The notes beneath the pieces were generated by a model. It was not told where the DNA came from and did no database searches. It was given only the letters and a program-made list of their open reading frames with translations. This document shows positions 1,895 to 30,991 of a stretch of DNA of 39,601 bases, in pieces; positions within the stretch are counted from its first letter, which is position 1, and each line of letters starts with the position of its first letter. The DNA comes from Chloroherpeton thalassium (lineage in GTDB: Bacteria > Bacteroidota > Ignavibacteria > Kapaibacteriales > UBA2268): contig DYLM01000011.1 in NCBI GenBank assembly GCA_020722095.1, positions 1 through 39,601 of the forward strand, given 5' to 3'. A program made the translations under genes and the position numbers.

Positions 1895-3202
1895 ATGTTA
1901 AAATTATCCGTTGTTGGTAATCCTGCCTTTCATAGCTTAAGCCCTAAAGTATATCAGGTTTTATCTGATGCTAATCAAATTAATTTGAGTTACAATAGAA
2001 TATCCGCAGAAAAAATTGAAGACGCATTAGAATTTGCTAGGACGATTAAAATGAACGGGTTGAATATTACTCGCCCCTTCAAAGAATCCGTTATCGAGCA
2101 TTTAGATAAAGTTGGTTATCAGGCTACGAATTTGAATTCTGTGAATACAATTCGCATTGAAAATGATTTCTTAACCGGACATAATACCGATTATTTTGGC
2201 ATATTAAAAACAATTTGGGATAATAATTTAATATTAAATAAGAAAAAGGTTCTAATTCTTGGAGCGGGTGCCGCTGGAAGAACAGCAACATTTGCTGTTA
2301 GAAATCTTAATGCAGTTATTATAGTTTGGGACAGAAATGAAGAAAAGGCAAAAGAAGTTGCCCAAGAAGTAGGGGTTAATTACATTACAACTAAGGAACT
2401 TACGAGTAACCAACATAGTTTCGACATAGTTGTTTCCTCAATCCCCCCAAACTCCTTGATCCTATCTCAAATAAAATGGAATTCGTCACAAATTATCATA
2501 GATACTGTTTATCACAATTCTTTTTTTGCAAAAAACAAAACAAAATATGGTTTTAATGTTATTGTAGGCGAAAAATGGCTTTTTAATCAAGCAGTGCTGT
2601 CATTTGAGATTTTCACTTACAAAAAGCCCATAGAATTGCACATTGACAATGAAGTTTTAAATTTGGAGAAGAAGTCATTTAACTCATTCGTCCTTATAGG
2701 ATTTTCTGGTTCAGGTAAGTCAAGTTTAGGCAAGGAAGTTGCTGAAAAATTGGGCTTTCAATTTTTTGACACAGATATTATGATTTCTAATAAACAAGAC
2801 AAATCTATAAATGAGATTTTCCAAGAACACGGTGAAGATTATTTTAGAGAACTTGAAACCTCTGTTTTGAAGGAAATTTTGAATAAATGCAATAATGGCA
2901 AATCAAATGCAATCATAGCAACCGGTGGTGGCATTATCGAAAAAGCTGAAAACATAGAATTGATAAAGAAAATTGGATTGCCAATTTGGATTTATGCACC
3001 AATACAAGATGCTTATAATAGAATAAATCTATTCAAAAATCGCCCATTGATAACTAACTTTGAAAATGCAAGTTCTTTATTTGCAAGTAGAATTGATAAA
3101 TATTACACTGCATCTGAAGGCATTTTTATCAATAATCGTGATTTTGAAACAGGTGCTGCCCGATTGGAAATGGAATTAAAAGCTATCGCAAAGTTAAATT
3201 AA
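1895..3202 (+). CDS. aroE-aroK: Fused shikimate dehydrogenase - shikimate kinase
   Basis: A two-domain enzyme for consecutive steps of aromatic amino-acid synthesis: 3-dehydroshikimate to shikimate (NADPH), then shikimate to shikimate-3-phosphate (ATP). Residues 1-~255 are AroE: substrate serines in SLSP (14, 16), catalytic Lys63 in TRPFKE, Asn84 in NSVNT, Asp99 in HNTDYFG, and the nucleotide-binding GAGAAG at ~123-128. Residues ~260-435 are shikimate kinase: Walker A GFSGSGKS near 270, FFDTD, the substrate arginine in YFRELE, ATGGG near 350, and the LID NRPLI. Both active sites look complete. The order AroE then AroK on one chain is uncommon in bacteria. An AAGG lies upstream of the ATG. Copy A of the hairpin repeat lies just upstream. 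Confidence 0.93.
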   Translation: MLKLSVVGNPAFHSLSPKVYQVLSDANQINLSYNRISAEKIEDALEFARTIKMNGLNITRPFKESVIEHLDKVGYQATNLNSVNTIRIENDFLTGHNTDYFGILKTIWDNNLILNKKKVLILGAGAAGRTATFAVRNLNAVIIVWDRNEEKAKEVAQEVGVNYITTKELTSNQHSFDIVVSSIPPNSLILSQIKWNSSQIIIDTVYHNSFFAKNKTKYGFNVIVGEKWLFNQAVLSFEIFTYKKPIELHIDNEVLNLEKKSFNSFVLIGFSGSGKSSLGKEVAEKLGFQFFDTDIMISNKQDKSINEIFQEHGEDYFRELETSVLKEILNKCNNGKSNAIIATGGGIIEKAENIELIKKIGLPIWIYAPIQDAYNRINLFKNRPLITNFENASSLFASRIDKYYTASEGIFINNRDFETGAARLEMELKAIAKLN

Positions 3203-26034: not shown

Positions 26035-26913
26035 TTATTTATCTTTCTCTTCTATAACTTTTTTATTGAAAAACATTGCTCCAAAAATTACCATACTGAT
26101 TCCAGCCAATAGCATAACAGGGAAAATCACCAATGCTAACTCGTTAGTGAAGATAATATCAACGCCAAATACAAATTCAGCAATCATCACAATCAATGTT
26201 AATAAACCAGCAATACCAACCACAAGCATTCCAATAAATGTAATTGGATTATAGAATGATGGCGGCAAAGGTGGATTAACTTTTTCGGTTTCGTGATGAT
26301 CGTGATGAATATGCCAGCCAGTTACAATTGTTTTAAACAAATCTCCAAATGTGTGCCCGGTTGTGCCCAAATATAAGTGCACAAACAGGAAAATTGTTAG
26401 GAAAAATGCCACCAAAGTATGAAGTAAAGCCATAGGCCAAACTCCACCCATTCCCAAAATTTCTTCTGGAGCAAATTCAGGAAAGAGCAATGCCCATCCC
26501 GAAAATAAAATCAACGGGAAAAGTATAAATATTATTGAAACATATCCAAGTTGCTGTAGTGGATTGAACTTACTTTCTTCATTTGGTTCAAAAGGGTGAG
26601 GTTTGCCGTGATAAATATCATATAAATAATACTTTGCTTGCTTAAAAACTCTTTCGGTCATTCCTTTGAAATTCACTAAATAATGTTTATAATTACCAGT
26701 AAGAAAATTCAAGGTGATGTAAAAGAAATAGTTAAATGAAAGTAAAATTCCCGCAATATTATGAATAACAACCGATGTATGAAATGAAATTACAAATTTA
26801 GTTTCAGCCGAAAAGTGCATACTCATACCAGTTGCAATTAATATCAAGAAAAGAGTCGCATTTAATAGATGCCAAATTCTTAGCCAAAGTGGATATAGAT
26901 AGATTTTTTTCAT
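26035..26913 (-). CDS. Membrane cytochrome b (Ni/Fe-hydrogenase/thiosulfate-reductase b type)
   Basis: 292 residues, about six hydrophobic segments. Candidate haem-ligand histidines lie in LRIWHLLN (His15), SFHTSVVIHNIAG, ALLHTLVAFF and FLFVHLYLGTTGH. The N-terminal pattern YPLWLRIWHLLN...IATGMSMHF is that of the PF01292 di-haem cytochrome b family, which exchanges electrons between the quinone pool and a periplasmic partner. A His-rich cytoplasmic/loop segment WHIHHDHHE lies near residue 195. It starts directly after the stop of the 13-haem cytochrome gene, as expected for a two-subunit complex like the Geobacter CbcBA/Cbc oxidoreductases. It is not a bc1-type cytochrome b. Confidence 0.85.
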   Translation of the reverse strand: MKKIYLYPLWLRIWHLLNATLFLILIATGMSMHFSAETKFVISFHTSVVIHNIAGILLSFNYFFYITLNFLTGNYKHYLVNFKGMTERVFKQAKYYLYDIYHGKPHPFEPNEESKFNPLQQLGYVSIIFILFPLILFSGWALLFPEFAPEEILGMGGVWPMALLHTLVAFFLTIFLFVHLYLGTTGHTFGDLFKTIVTGWHIHHDHHETEKVNPPLPPSFYNPITFIGMLVVGIAGLLTLIVMIAEFVFGVDIIFTNELALVIFPVMLLAGISMVIFGAMFFNKKVIEEKDK

Positions 26914-28356
26914 TTATTTTCCTTTGTTAAAATACCATCTCATAAAGAAATGCACAATAATACCAACAATTACCAAACCAAATAAACCAATAAGTATAGA
27001 ATCCAATAATACATTGCGAGTAGTTCCCACTACATAAGCATCGCTCAGGATAGTTCCATTGATAAAACCATACTTCTCGCGGGATTGATGTTTCTCGTGC
27101 TTGTAGAGTTTTGCCATCAAAGCAGAGTTTTTGCTATGGCATTGTTCGCACTTTTTAATAACCTTTTCGGGTGGCAATAAGTCGTGTCCGTAAGTGTTTG
27201 GCTCATAAGATGAGTGACAATCAATGCATCGGACGGTTTCGTTATGTTTGCCAAGAGCAGGTAGAAATTCGTGTGCTTTAATAAAGGTTTGCAATCCAAA
27301 TTTCTTCATCATTTCCTCGTCTGCATGGCACTTAACACAATGGATCATTTGTGTTTTTACAGCGGCTTCGGGGTGTATCATATTGTTAGTAAACATTTTA
27401 ACGGGAACATCAACAACGGGATTAATGTTATGCTCGCCGTGGCAATAAGTGCAAGTAGGAGCTTCGTCTTCTCCAGCATCTAATGCAATTCCGTGCACAC
27501 TATTTTTGTATTCCATTGCAATATCTTTATGGCATCGACCACAAATATACGACACATTTGTTTTACTAATTTTTGAATTTGGTGATTTGCTTTTCTTTAA
27601 ATCGTGCACCCCGTGGCAATCTGTGCAAATAGCTGCTTTTTCATTACCTGATTTAATAGCCATTCCATGAACTGAATTATCGTAATCAATTAGAGTTTTT
27701 GAGAATTTAGTTGGATGAGTTTTATTATTTAAATGACAGGTTAAACATAATTGTTCTTGATTTCTCTTTAAATCAATTTTGGATAATTTATGATTTGATG
27801 TTACTTTTTGAGAATGGCAGTAAATACAAGTAGGAGCATTGGGATTATGCTGCTGAATTTCAACAAAGTGGTCAGATTTAATGTGTTGGTTCTTTTCTTT
27901 TTCGTGACACTTTCCGCAATAATTTGTTGAATTTGCAAAATTAGTAGGCGAAGTAGGACTCGATTTAGTCATAACTTCGTGGGTGCCGTGGCAACCTTTA
28001 CAATTCACATCTGGACTGCCCGAGTATCCATTTGCTTGCACAATTTGTGGATGGAATAAATGCTTGTCGAGTGGAGCTGAATGGCATTTTTTGCAATTCA
28101 CAGGTTGTATCATTTCCTTGTGCGGAATATCGTCAGGATTGAAACCCTCGTGGCAATCCACGCACTTCAATTTGGAATGAGCAGATGCGTTCAATACAGA
28201 CTTTTTAACTGTTATTGAAATTTCTTTGCCATTTTTGTCCATTGTCATACCCGCTTCGGCATGGCAATCCAAACAAACTTGATTTTGCTGCGAAGAAGTA
28301 GAAATTGGCAGCATTATAATCATTATTAAAACAGGGAGTAAAAATTTATTTTTCAT
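26914..28356 (-). CDS. 13-haem c-type cytochrome with C-terminal membrane anchor
   Basis: 480 residues from the ATG at 28356, which opens a good signal peptide (KNKFLLPVLIMIIMLPIST) and has AGAGAG upstream; the in-frame extension to 28428 has no such features. I count 13 CxxCH sites in order: CLDCH, CVDCH, CKKCH, CKGCH, CGKCH, CIYCH, CLTCH, CTDCH, CGRCH, CTYCH, CVKCH, CIDCH, CEQCH. A tandem internal duplication (NSVHGxA...G...A..CTxCHGxH) appears around haems 8-10. One transmembrane helix near the end (LLDSILIGLFGLVIVGIIVHFF, residues ~450-472) holds it in the inner membrane facing the periplasm. It abuts the cytochrome b gene, its probable electron partner, and follows an intrinsic terminator. 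Confidence 0.9.
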   Translation of the reverse strand: MKNKFLLPVLIMIIMLPISTSSQQNQVCLDCHAEAGMTMDKNGKEISITVKKSVLNASAHSKLKCVDCHEGFNPDDIPHKEMIQPVNCKKCHSAPLDKHLFHPQIVQANGYSGSPDVNCKGCHGTHEVMTKSSPTSPTNFANSTNYCGKCHEKEKNQHIKSDHFVEIQQHNPNAPTCIYCHSQKVTSNHKLSKIDLKRNQEQLCLTCHLNNKTHPTKFSKTLIDYDNSVHGMAIKSGNEKAAICTDCHGVHDLKKSKSPNSKISKTNVSYICGRCHKDIAMEYKNSVHGIALDAGEDEAPTCTYCHGEHNINPVVDVPVKMFTNNMIHPEAAVKTQMIHCVKCHADEEMMKKFGLQTFIKAHEFLPALGKHNETVRCIDCHSSYEPNTYGHDLLPPEKVIKKCEQCHSKNSALMAKLYKHEKHQSREKYGFINGTILSDAYVVGTTRNVLLDSILIGLFGLVIVGIIVHFFMRWYFNKGK

Positions 28357-28380
28357 ATAAAACTCTCTTTTGGATTTTAC

Positions 28381-28415
28381 AAAAAAAGGGCTGTTAGAAT
28401 TAAATCGAACAGCCC
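28381..28415 (-). terminator. Intrinsic terminator inside the cytochrome gene cluster
   Basis: Read on the minus strand: GGGCTGTT (28415-28408), a 12-nt loop, AACAGCCC (28395-28388), then seven Ts (28387-28381). It lies between the monohaem cytochrome and the 13-haem cytochrome, 25 bp before the latter's ATG. It would limit or separate expression of the last two genes. A second dyad TACATTA...TAATGTA lies at 28431-28453. Confidence 0.8.
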
Positions 28416-28485
28416 ATTTAATTTGCAATTTACATTATATTAAACTTAATGTAAAGTTTGAATTATTAACCTCAAAAAAGTCAAA

Positions 28486-28821
28486 TTATTTTTTCAGAGT
28501 TAATAACCACTTAGCCAAGACATTTAATTGTGCATCTTCGCCTTTGAATTTAACGGGATGTGATTTGTCGTTAAGTTTTACTTCTTTCTTCAAGTATTTA
28601 ACCAAAGTTGCTTGTGCAATCCCTTTATCTCCTACTGTTGATAAATCTGGGTATTTTGCAGCTTGCTTTGAAGTAATAGATTGCGAAGCAATAGCGTGGC
28701 AAGTGTTGCATTTTGAGTTTAGAAAAATGTCCTTGCCCGTTGGTTCTTCAGCAGTGATGAATGAAGCAAAGAAAAAAGAAATTACTGCGATTGCGATGAA
28801 TGTTTTTGCGAGTTTCATCAT
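28486..28821 (-). CDS. Small monohaem c-type cytochrome, no Met ligand
   Basis: 111 residues: signal peptide (LAKTFIAIAVISFFFASFITA), one haem site C38-N-T-C41-H42, and a C-terminal helix LNVLAKWLLTLKK. Periplasmic electron shuttle by inference. There is no methionine after residue 2, so the usual His/Met axial pair cannot form. His88 in KSHPVKFKG lies where the Met loop would be and may give bis-His ligation, which would lower the redox potential. AAGGAGG lies just ahead of the ATGATG start, one of the strongest Shine-Dalgarno matches in the window, suggesting high expression. It is the third gene of the cluster, before the terminator. Confidence 0.88.
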   Translation of the reverse strand: MMKLAKTFIAIAVISFFFASFITAEEPTGKDIFLNSKCNTCHAIASQSITSKQAAKYPDLSTVGDKGIAQATLVKYLKKEVKLNDKSHPVKFKGEDAQLNVLAKWLLTLKK

Positions 28822-28865
28822 TTCCTCCTTTTGTTTTAATTAATGTTATACAAAATTAAAAAAAA

Positions 28866-29351
28866 TTATATTTTAATTTCCAAAGTTTTTTTAGCCTCGT
28901 CAAACTTTCCAACGGCGTATTGCTTTAAATTATAGCCTTGGAAAGGTCCGCCAACATATTTCCCATCAACTGTAGAATAATGATTTGGATGGCATTGGCA
29001 AGCTAAAGTGCTATCTGTGTCGGTTGGTAAATTCACTGCACAATTCATATGCGGGCAAATAGAATTCACCACAGAGAATGAACCATCTTTATGGTGCGTA
29101 ATTACAATTGGATTATCGGCATTTTTGCCATCAATTTTAACTTTTTTAATTGAACCTGGCACGAGTAATTCGGGGTGCGGAGTTAAGTCTAACACATAAA
29201 AAGTAGTTACATTAGTATTCATATCAGTTACTAATTCTTCGCTTTCGCAAGCAGTAAATAATTGTGGAACAGCTGCAATTGCCAATCCAGCACCAATTAC
29301 TTTAGTAGTATTTAATAAAAAATCTCTTCTATTTGAATTTTCTTTAATCAT
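28866..29351 (-). CDS. Tat-exported Rieske [2Fe-2S] lipoprotein
   Basis: 161 residues from the ATG at 29351; this start has AGAGAGG upstream and leaves 29 bp after the previous gene, whereas the longer in-frame start would overlap it. NSNRRDFLLNTT (Arg8-Arg9) is a twin-arginine signal, followed by the lipobox LFTAC (Cys35). The Rieske site is complete: Cys99-x-His101 with Cys104, and Cys118-x-Cys120-His121, giving two Cys and two His ligands and the disulfide pair. The usual Gly-Ser after the second His is replaced by PNHYS, which should change hydrogen bonds to the cluster and its potential. It probably passes electrons between the cytochrome b/13-haem pair and the monohaem cytochrome (inference). 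Confidence 0.9.
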   Translation of the reverse strand: MIKENSNRRDFLLNTTKVIGAGLAIAAVPQLFTACESEELVTDMNTNVTTFYVLDLTPHPELLVPGSIKKVKIDGKNADNPIVITHHKDGSFSVVNSICPHMNCAVNLPTDTDSTLACQCHPNHYSTVDGKYVGGPFQGYNLKQYAVGKFDEAKKTLEIKI

Positions 29352-29380
29352 TTTATACCTCTCTTTCTTCAATATAAAAA

Positions 29381-30691
29381 TTAATAAAATAAATGAACTT
29401 GTAATGCCCAAGCAGCAAATTTGCCGTCAACGTGATCTCTGTCGTATATTCTGTATTCTGGTAAAATGCCGATGTATGGTAATGGGAATATTTTTGCTCC
29501 AAAAACATATTGAGTTGCTGAATAATCCGATTCTTCTTTTACAAAGTTGCTGTTTCCTCTTTCGTATCTTGCATAAAAATACATCGATTCGCCAGGAATA
29601 CCGATCTTTATATCATTAAATGGTTGATACGTTAATTCTGCTAAAAAGTTGTTAGTTTCACGAGTTTCTTGTTTTTTGCTTCCCATATATTCTAACATTA
29701 ATGAGAATCTGTCAATCATACCAACATTGAAGAATAAATTATAAACTGAGTAATAATCATTTCCATAGTAAATACCATTGTCTGTTTTTAAATCTCCATT
29801 CATCATCAAATAGCCACCAAAGAATGTTGTCCATCCACTAATAATTTCGGGTGGATAGAAACCTAATCTTGCAAATGTTGATAAATAGTTGCCATCTACC
29901 ATTTTAAGAACCGAAAGATTTTCGCTATCAAATACACCTATTGTAGCACCCAACCAAGGAATTGCTTCGTATTCGATTTGAGCTCCCCATTCAGTATAGT
30001 CGTGTGGCAATACCAGCGAAGCACGAGTAGCACCAACTACTTGTCGAATTAGCAATGTATGGTCGTCCCATTTTGTTCCAATCATAGGTTGGAAATAACC
30101 AACTCTCAAGTATGGTAGTTTTTCGCCAGGGCGTAAATACATACTGAAAGCGTAAGGTTTTTGTCCAGGATAGCGTTTTTCTGTTTCAATTTCATAAGCA
30201 AAATTATAAAAACCTTCAAGTTCAATAAAATCCCAAGGTTTGATACTAACATAAGGATCAACTTGCATAATCATAGCATCACGTTCGGGTTGACTTGTTA
30301 TCACAGTATCACGATAGTTCTCTACAACAATTGAATCGTTAACTTTATAATACTTAGTTTTGTCCGAAATTTCTCTGGTTTTCTGAGGACCGCCCCATTT
30401 AGCATTTTGCCAACGGAAATCTAATCCAAAAGTAACAATTCCATCAAATAATTGATTTGTGTTTTGCAATGCGTCAAATATAGACCCCAAACCAATTTTG
30501 GAAGGTTCCACAAGTGATGTTTGATTACGAGACATCCATCCACCTAATGTTCTTGCACCGCCACCTTGTGTATTAATGTGGCAACTTTGACACTTAGTAC
30601 CATAGGACTGCAATATAGAATATTCTGGACGAGCATAAGCTATTGATGCAGAGATAATAATGAGTAACGCTAATTTGGAAAAAAACTTCAT
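29381..30691 (-). CDS. Monohaem cytochrome-porin fusion, Cyc2-like layout
   Basis: 436 residues. The signal peptide ends AYA20, and a single c-haem site C34-Q-S-C37-H38 lies 14 residues into the mature protein, followed by GGGARTLGGW. The remaining ~390 residues look like an outer-membrane barrel: alternating strands such as GIVTFGLDFRWQ, LEGFYNFAYEIETE, LPYLRVGYFQPMIGTKW, WGAQIEYEAIPWLGATIGVF and SMYFYARYERGN, ending WALQVHLFY with a terminal aromatic. This is the layout of the iron oxidase Cyc2 (haem plug plus barrel), although the CQSCH...GGG motif differs from the Cyc2 consensus as I recall it. It is first in the cluster and its gene is preceded by the remnant of another gene. Confidence 0.8.
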   Translation of the reverse strand: MKFFSKLALLIIISASIAYARPEYSILQSYGTKCQSCHINTQGGGARTLGGWMSRNQTSLVEPSKIGLGSIFDALQNTNQLFDGIVTFGLDFRWQNAKWGGPQKTREISDKTKYYKVNDSIVVENYRDTVITSQPERDAMIMQVDPYVSIKPWDFIELEGFYNFAYEIETEKRYPGQKPYAFSMYLRPGEKLPYLRVGYFQPMIGTKWDDHTLLIRQVVGATRASLVLPHDYTEWGAQIEYEAIPWLGATIGVFDSENLSVLKMVDGNYLSTFARLGFYPPEIISGWTTFFGGYLMMNGDLKTDNGIYYGNDYYSVYNLFFNVGMIDRFSLMLEYMGSKKQETRETNNFLAELTYQPFNDIKIGIPGESMYFYARYERGNSNFVKEESDYSATQYVFGAKIFPLPYIGILPEYRIYDRDHVDGKFAAWALQVHLFY

Positions 30692-30867: not shown

Positions 30868-30991
30868 TTATTTTTTCAAAACTTCCAAAGTGTTCTTTGC
30901 TAATGCTTTGTAGTAACCGGGATTGTGGATACCATGACTACCGTCATAGGGCTAATAAGCTAATTCTGAAAGGATTGATTGATTTTTTCAT
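30868..30991 (-). pseudogene. Remnant of a deleted exported gene, probably a multihaem cytochrome
   Basis: On the minus strand an ATG at 30991 opens MKKSINPFRISLLAL, the start of a signal peptide, and hits TGA at 30944. In the next frame from 30951 to a TAA at 30868, the DNA reads PYDGSHGIHNPGYYKAL followed by AKNTLEVLKK and stop. HGIHNPxYxxxLxxN is the common C-terminal ending of multihaem c cytochromes, where the His often ligates a haem. So about 15 codons of the 5' end and 28 of the 3' end are joined out of frame with the middle lost. It lies 177 bp upstream of the cytochrome-porin gene, same strand. Confidence 0.7.

Follow-up and report, generated by a model that had tools for sequence, protein, structure and literature searches.

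The window analysed here is a 39,601-nucleotide stretch of DNA (contig DYLM01000011.1, assembly GCA_020722095.1, listed as Chloroherpeton thalassium) from a genome of 2.46 Mb that is 94.65% complete and was placed with Kapabacteria. Between positions 26035 and 30691 it carries five genes, all on the minus strand, for a one-haem outer-membrane porin (the barrel), a Rieske [2Fe-2S] lipoprotein, a small monohaem cytochrome c, a 13-haem cytochrome c and a PF01292 cytochrome b (Table 1). An original prediction had described these genes as a complete conduit between the quinone pool and the outer membrane. The five same-strand genes and the cofactor sites assigned to them were borne out by Pfam matches and by CxxCH counts of 1 + 1 + 13. 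Comparison with homologues moved two gene starts, placing the conserved start of the Rieske gene at 29351 instead of 29411 in the open reading frame (ORF) list, and that of the 13-haem gene at 28356 instead of 28428.

Table 1. Genes, domain and gene remnant of the cluster, with positions in the window.
Feature	Position	Strand	Remarks
Hexahaem lipoprotein gene remnant	30868..30991	-	tblastn, 73% identity over 22 residues
One-haem outer-membrane porin (barrel)	29381..30691	-	436 aa; CxxCH at residues 34-38 after signal peptide
Rieske [2Fe-2S] lipoprotein	28866..29351	-	PF00355 E=8.7e-10; twin-Arg signal and lipobox Cys
Small monohaem cytochrome c, class I	28486..28821	-	111 aa; signal peptide; PF00034 E=2.3e-5
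13-haem cytochrome c	26914..28356	-	480 aa; 13 CxxCH at residues 28-403; C-terminal membrane helix
PF01292 cytochrome b	26035..26913	-	292 aa; PF01292 E=2.8e-22; abuts 13-haem gene
C-terminal two-helix part of b subunit	26035..26265	-	aligns with start of ImcH-like proteins; relatives' third helix and seven haem sites missing

The order barrel, Rieske, monohaem c, 13-haem c, cytochrome b recurs in 14 of 20 related loci fetched from many genera of the window's family, one of which stops at a contig edge; this recurrence is far beyond chance. Absence of linkage in related genomes had been named in advance as an outcome that would count against the module, and the opposite was found. Of the genes downstream of the barrel in these loci, monohaem c was the most frequent (19 loci), followed by Rieske (17), 13-haem c (15) and cytochrome b (14), and a hexahaem lipoprotein gene lay upstream of the barrel in 19. 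Barrel homologues were detected in 79 of 100 relatives. Among named relatives, the cluster occurs in metagenome-assembled genomes (MAGs) of Candidatus Kapabacteria and in the complete genome of Ca. Kapaibacterium Ch6; a MAG labelled SulCav is the closest of these named relatives (barrel identity, 93%). Ch6 has been reported to reduce sulphate and to have a cytochrome c oxidase (PMC7509429). Barrels from five other families of the order were found near a Rieske gene, without the multihaem genes. No description of this gene set was found in the open-access literature; a seven-gene cluster reported from Bacteroidetes encodes a single barrel along with six multihaem cytochromes, and its report mentions no Rieske gene (PMC8258643).

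All five genes are under strong purifying selection. Comparison of the window with a sister species by the NG86 method yielded ratios of nonsynonymous to synonymous substitution (dN/dS) of 0.07 for the barrel, 0.12 for the Rieske protein, 0.10 for the monohaem cytochrome, 0.03 for the 13-haem cytochrome and 0.09 for cytochrome b, and the YN00 method gave values of 0.03-0.09 for the five genes. The CxxCH motif of the barrel was invariant in homologue alignments, as were the ligand Cys and His residues and lipobox Cys of the Rieske protein across 23 homologues and all 13 CxxCH sites of the 13-haem protein in 12 homologues.

Profile searches of Pfam and NCBIfam returned no match for the barrel. 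An AlphaFold2 model (pLDDT 75.8, pTM 0.74) predicted a porin of about 16 strands, whose best PDB matches by Foldseek were OprO (4rjw, E=1.1e-9) and OprP (2o4v, E=1.4e-9), with a TM score of about 0.5. The same templates have been reported for Cyc2, the fused cytochrome-porin of iron oxidisers, which is marked by the motif AXPXFAR[Q/K][T/Y] upstream and PXL downstream of CXXCH (PMC8406198). The barrel shares with Cyc2 a signal peptide, a single N-terminal CxxCH, the predicted OprO/OprP-like porin of about 16 strands and a length above 365 aa, but it is paired with a Rieske lipoprotein, and neither published motif was found in its homologues (0/50 for each). A relaxed form, AxPx[F/Y][A/S], was present in 46 of the 50, and the family has a haem motif of its own, [A/S]RPxYSILQxYGTKCxxCHxNxQGGGxR. 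Because the Cyc2 motif is absent and a different motif is common to the homologues, we refer to the barrel as Cyc2-like in architecture and reject its membership in Cyc2; the likeness first suggested from the sequence thus holds for the architecture but not for the family. As in MtrCAB and other porin-cytochrome (Pcc) systems, barrel and cytochromes are proposed to connect the periplasm with the surface. However, those systems use a barrel of about 26 strands that sheathes a multihaem rod, whereas the one in the window is small, carries its own haem and is accompanied by a Rieske lipoprotein. An MtrB-like identity was rejected because the fold search returned 16-strand porins; this separation is by fold. 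The arrangement of an MtrB/OmbB barrel with periplasmic and surface multihaem plugs was not found in the window, where no intact multihaem lipoprotein adjoins the barrel.

The lipid Cys of the Rieske protein is followed by acidic residues, which we take to resemble a surface-export tag of Bacteroidota; the protein could therefore lie on either side of the membrane. Among related loci without a Rieske gene, at least one (L063) encodes at the Rieske position a small lipoprotein of the cytochrome c type, whose lipid Cys begins a comparable acidic stretch (CEQDE). Two loci from other families of the order have, between the barrel and Rieske genes, a gene for a small membrane protein that belongs to no known family (L033, 7996-8289; L039, 8726-9109), and a Pfam search with the L033 protein gave no match. 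One further genome, G013, carries two tandem hexahaem-barrel-Rieske triplets with an extra hexahaem gene in front (L148, 8080-17055).

The 13-haem protein is homologous to fusions of a 13-haem cytochrome with a PF01292 domain that are encoded beside ImcH-like genes, and sometimes beside a monohaem c gene, in other families of the class; judging from class membership, the genomes with these fusions belong to the Ignavibacteria side. The proposed likeness of the 13-haem/b pair to CbcL was upheld in this split form. As in CbcL, MtoC and MtrH, a multihaem cytochrome c is followed by a PF01292-type cytochrome b (PMC6295460). In those proteins both parts, including a six-helix b domain, form a single polypeptide, as in the fusion at L104, whereas the window has two adjacent genes, and 13 haems compare with nine in Geobacter CbcL. 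The window b subunit is 40-91% identical to its homologues but has no closeness detectable by BLAST to the b domains of the CbcL-like fusions. In two relatives, an 18- to 19-haem protein adjoins the cluster (L061, 390-3221; L149, 1835), with a PF01292 domain in that of L061.

In many family members, the b subunit is 731-740 aa long and continues into a NapC-like domain with one CX3CH and six CX2CH sites. A NapC-like start with one CX3CH and further CX2CH haem sites has been reported for ImcH (PMC6295460), and a third helix, a CX3CH and five to nine CX2CH sites were present in sequences from 25 relatives. The relatives' domain resembles ImcH in these features and differs in that it is usually fused to the b subunit in the window's family. 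The window b subunit stops after two extra membrane helices, with residues 213-290 matching the N-termini of ImcH-like proteins, and lacks the third helix and haem sites. No match to the lost seven-haem domain was found anywhere in the window genome.

The hexahaem gene has also been lost from the window. A start at position 30991 reads MKKSINPFRISLLAL and then TGA, and the out-of-frame C-terminus of the hexahaem protein was recovered by tblastn at 30948-30868. No intact copy was found in the window genome. The gene was likewise missing from both the window and its nearest relative (G001) despite strong barrel matches, while the congeners G002-G004 have it. The loss of the hexahaem protein and the truncation of the b subunit are separable, since the b subunit is also short at three other loci (L056-L058) where the hexahaem gene has been retained. 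In relatives, the hexahaem proteins are lipoproteins in which all six haems are invariant and a collagen-like linker is present. A profile search with this family matched PDB entry 6i5b first (E=1.7e-9), which we take to be the structure of OcwA itself, followed by NrfA, and octahaem nitrite reductases were also matched. The paper describing OcwA, a cell-surface terminal reductase, cites 6i5b once (PMC6703420). The relatives' protein is intact and shares its haem stretch and a C-terminal helical motif with 6i5b and NrfA; it differs in being a lipoprotein with a collagen-like linker and in having six haems as against nine or five. Thus, two claims of the original prediction did not hold. The five genes are not a complete conduit, since relatives have two more haem units, the hexahaem lipoprotein and the ImcH-like domain, both lost in the window; nor does a single-haem barrel replace the usual barrel with a multihaem plug, since the system typical of the family pairs the barrel with the hexahaem lipoprotein. 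The dN/dS values of 0.03-0.12 nevertheless show that selection still maintains all five remaining genes in the absence of the hexahaem protein.

A match to a characterised reductase with its catalytic subunit elsewhere had been the other outcome named as fatal to the module, and it did not occur. A thiosulphate, nitrate or other molybdenum reductase partner was rejected: no molybdenum catalytic subunit was evident beside the cluster in the window or in relatives' loci, and the sole PF00384 match in the genome is NuoG-like by length. Tetrathionate reductase was also rejected, as the genome's octahaem cytochrome of that family (TIGR04315, 564 bits) has its own PF01292 b subunit on another contig (L165, 5681-12344). 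The octahaem and b genes at that locus are followed by two membrane-protein genes and by genes for two lipoproteins, one with 10 haems and the sequence CEKDDE at its lipid Cys, the other a rhodanese. The decahaem lipoprotein could be a partner of the chain; because congeners that retain the hexahaem protein have it too, it does not specifically replace that protein. The window genome yielded no aa3-type oxidase; in it, the sole match to the haem-copper family is a quinol nitric oxide (NO) reductase-like protein and a bd oxidase is also present; there is thus no evident c-type oxidase for the electrons of the chain.

Collectively, these data suggest that the cluster is a quinone-to-outer-membrane electron-transfer module that has been reduced in the window's lineage and is still functional, a reading to which we assign a probability of about 0.65. 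Gene content, synteny, losses and selection are shown by the sequences, and the porin fold is predicted; the electron path, compartments and partners described next are inferred from what is known of the protein families and from the order of the genes. Where the family has the full set, electrons would be exchanged at the inner membrane between menaquinone and the CbcL-like pair of PF01292 cytochrome b and 13-haem cytochrome c, together with the ImcH-like seven-haem domain. The small soluble monohaem cytochrome would carry them through the periplasm to the Rieske lipoprotein and the one-haem porin in the outer membrane, and the porin would hand them to the OcwA/NrfA-type hexahaem lipoprotein. 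This module appears to have lost its hexahaem protein in the window's species and to have had its ImcH-like domain truncated, with the other five genes retained by selection. What is left of the chain probably acts on a small, soluble redox compound able to enter the pore, a mode proposed for Cyc2, or on a cytochrome encoded elsewhere. We lean towards outward, anaerobic use, with electrons leaving to an acceptor, over their entry from a donor such as Fe(II).

Several points weigh against this reading. The window's species lacks the family's terminal haem protein, and the remnant of its gene is known from one assembly. On general grounds, one N-terminal haem alone cannot carry an electron across the outer membrane. 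In the barrel model the haem segment has a pLDDT below 50, and the model of the 13-haem protein was too poor for a fold search. Every absence claimed for the window genome is bounded by the 94.65% completeness of the MAG, and the function of the module is proposed here from sequence and models.

The same hardware might run in reverse. The barrel would then oxidise Fe(II) or some other small reduced solute in the manner of Cyc2, and the Rieske protein and cytochrome c would relay the electrons to the 13-haem/b pair, from which they would reach menaquinone and finally the bd oxidase or the quinol NO reductase. An inward route would suit the Cyc2-like architecture of the barrel, the dispensability of the multihaem surface protein in the window's species and the bd oxidase and quinol NO reductase-like genes of the genome, and relatives of CbcL and MtoC have been implicated in both electron directions, in reducers and in oxidisers (PMC6295460). 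However, the absence of the Cyc2 motif from all 50 homologues, and the retention in most relatives of an OcwA/NrfA-type protein whose characterised kin are reductases, make this direction unlikely, if still a serious contender. The relatives' hexahaem protein could instead be an NrfA-like periplasmic enzyme for soluble nitrite, sulphite or a similar substrate admitted by the barrel, fed by the 13-haem/b pair and surviving in the window as the leftover of a reductase system. Its profile matches to NrfA and octahaem nitrite reductases fit this idea, as does the score of 184.5 bits of cytochrome b against the profile of the thiosulphate reductase b subunit PhsC, although that score misses the cut-off of 204. 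Against it stand the invariant haem of the barrel and the continuing selection on the five genes that outlasted the hexahaem protein, and we consider such a reductase improbable.

The grouping of Rieske, cytochrome b and cytochrome c genes also recalls an inner-membrane quinol:cytochrome c oxidoreductase standing in for complex III, with the barrel as a passenger. Also in favour of this reading, the only NrfD match of the genome lies outside any alternative complex III (ACIII) locus, in a set comprising a 13-haem cytochrome, an NrfD membrane subunit and a four-cluster-type iron-sulphur subunit (L154, 7038-10502), which may be a second quinone-linked multihaem set. Against it, ACIII has been reported for the cluster-bearing group (PMC6338057), and in many relatives that have the cluster, NrfD and aa3 genes share a contig. 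The Rieske protein is moreover a lipoprotein, found together with the barrel in other families of the order, and the b subunit is of the PF01292 type, not the bc1 type. A complex III substitute is accordingly very improbable. A bc1 or b6f complex proper was rejected on the same PF01292 identity, bc-type b subunits having been looked at in the operon only.

Two observations were made in passing. Contig DYPF01000021.1 (L073), the nearest relative, was also deposited as Chloroherpeton thalassium; it matches G001 of the window's genus, and the name looks wrong. At 1895-3202, the window has a single 435-aa ORF that by eye reads as a shikimate dehydrogenase-shikimate kinase fusion.

The greatest novelty of the cluster lies in the pair of haem-porin and Rieske lipoprotein, which several families of the order share. 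As a tentative proposal, which we think somewhat more likely wrong than right, this pair may be a new, non-Cyc2 outer-membrane electron-transfer unit that is kept across several Kapabacterial families, is joined in one of them to an OcwA-like lipoprotein and a quinone module of the CbcL/ImcH type, and in the window's species still works as a minimal one-haem crossing after the loss of its multihaem partner. These findings suggest that a widespread uncultured group has a further family of haem-bearing porins, distinct from published Cyc2, whose link is to a Rieske protein and not to high-potential iron proteins or multihaem plugs. Within one genus, some species have the hexahaem protein and others have lost it, which would offer a natural comparison between a single-haem barrel alone and one with a multihaem partner for electron exchange with the outside.

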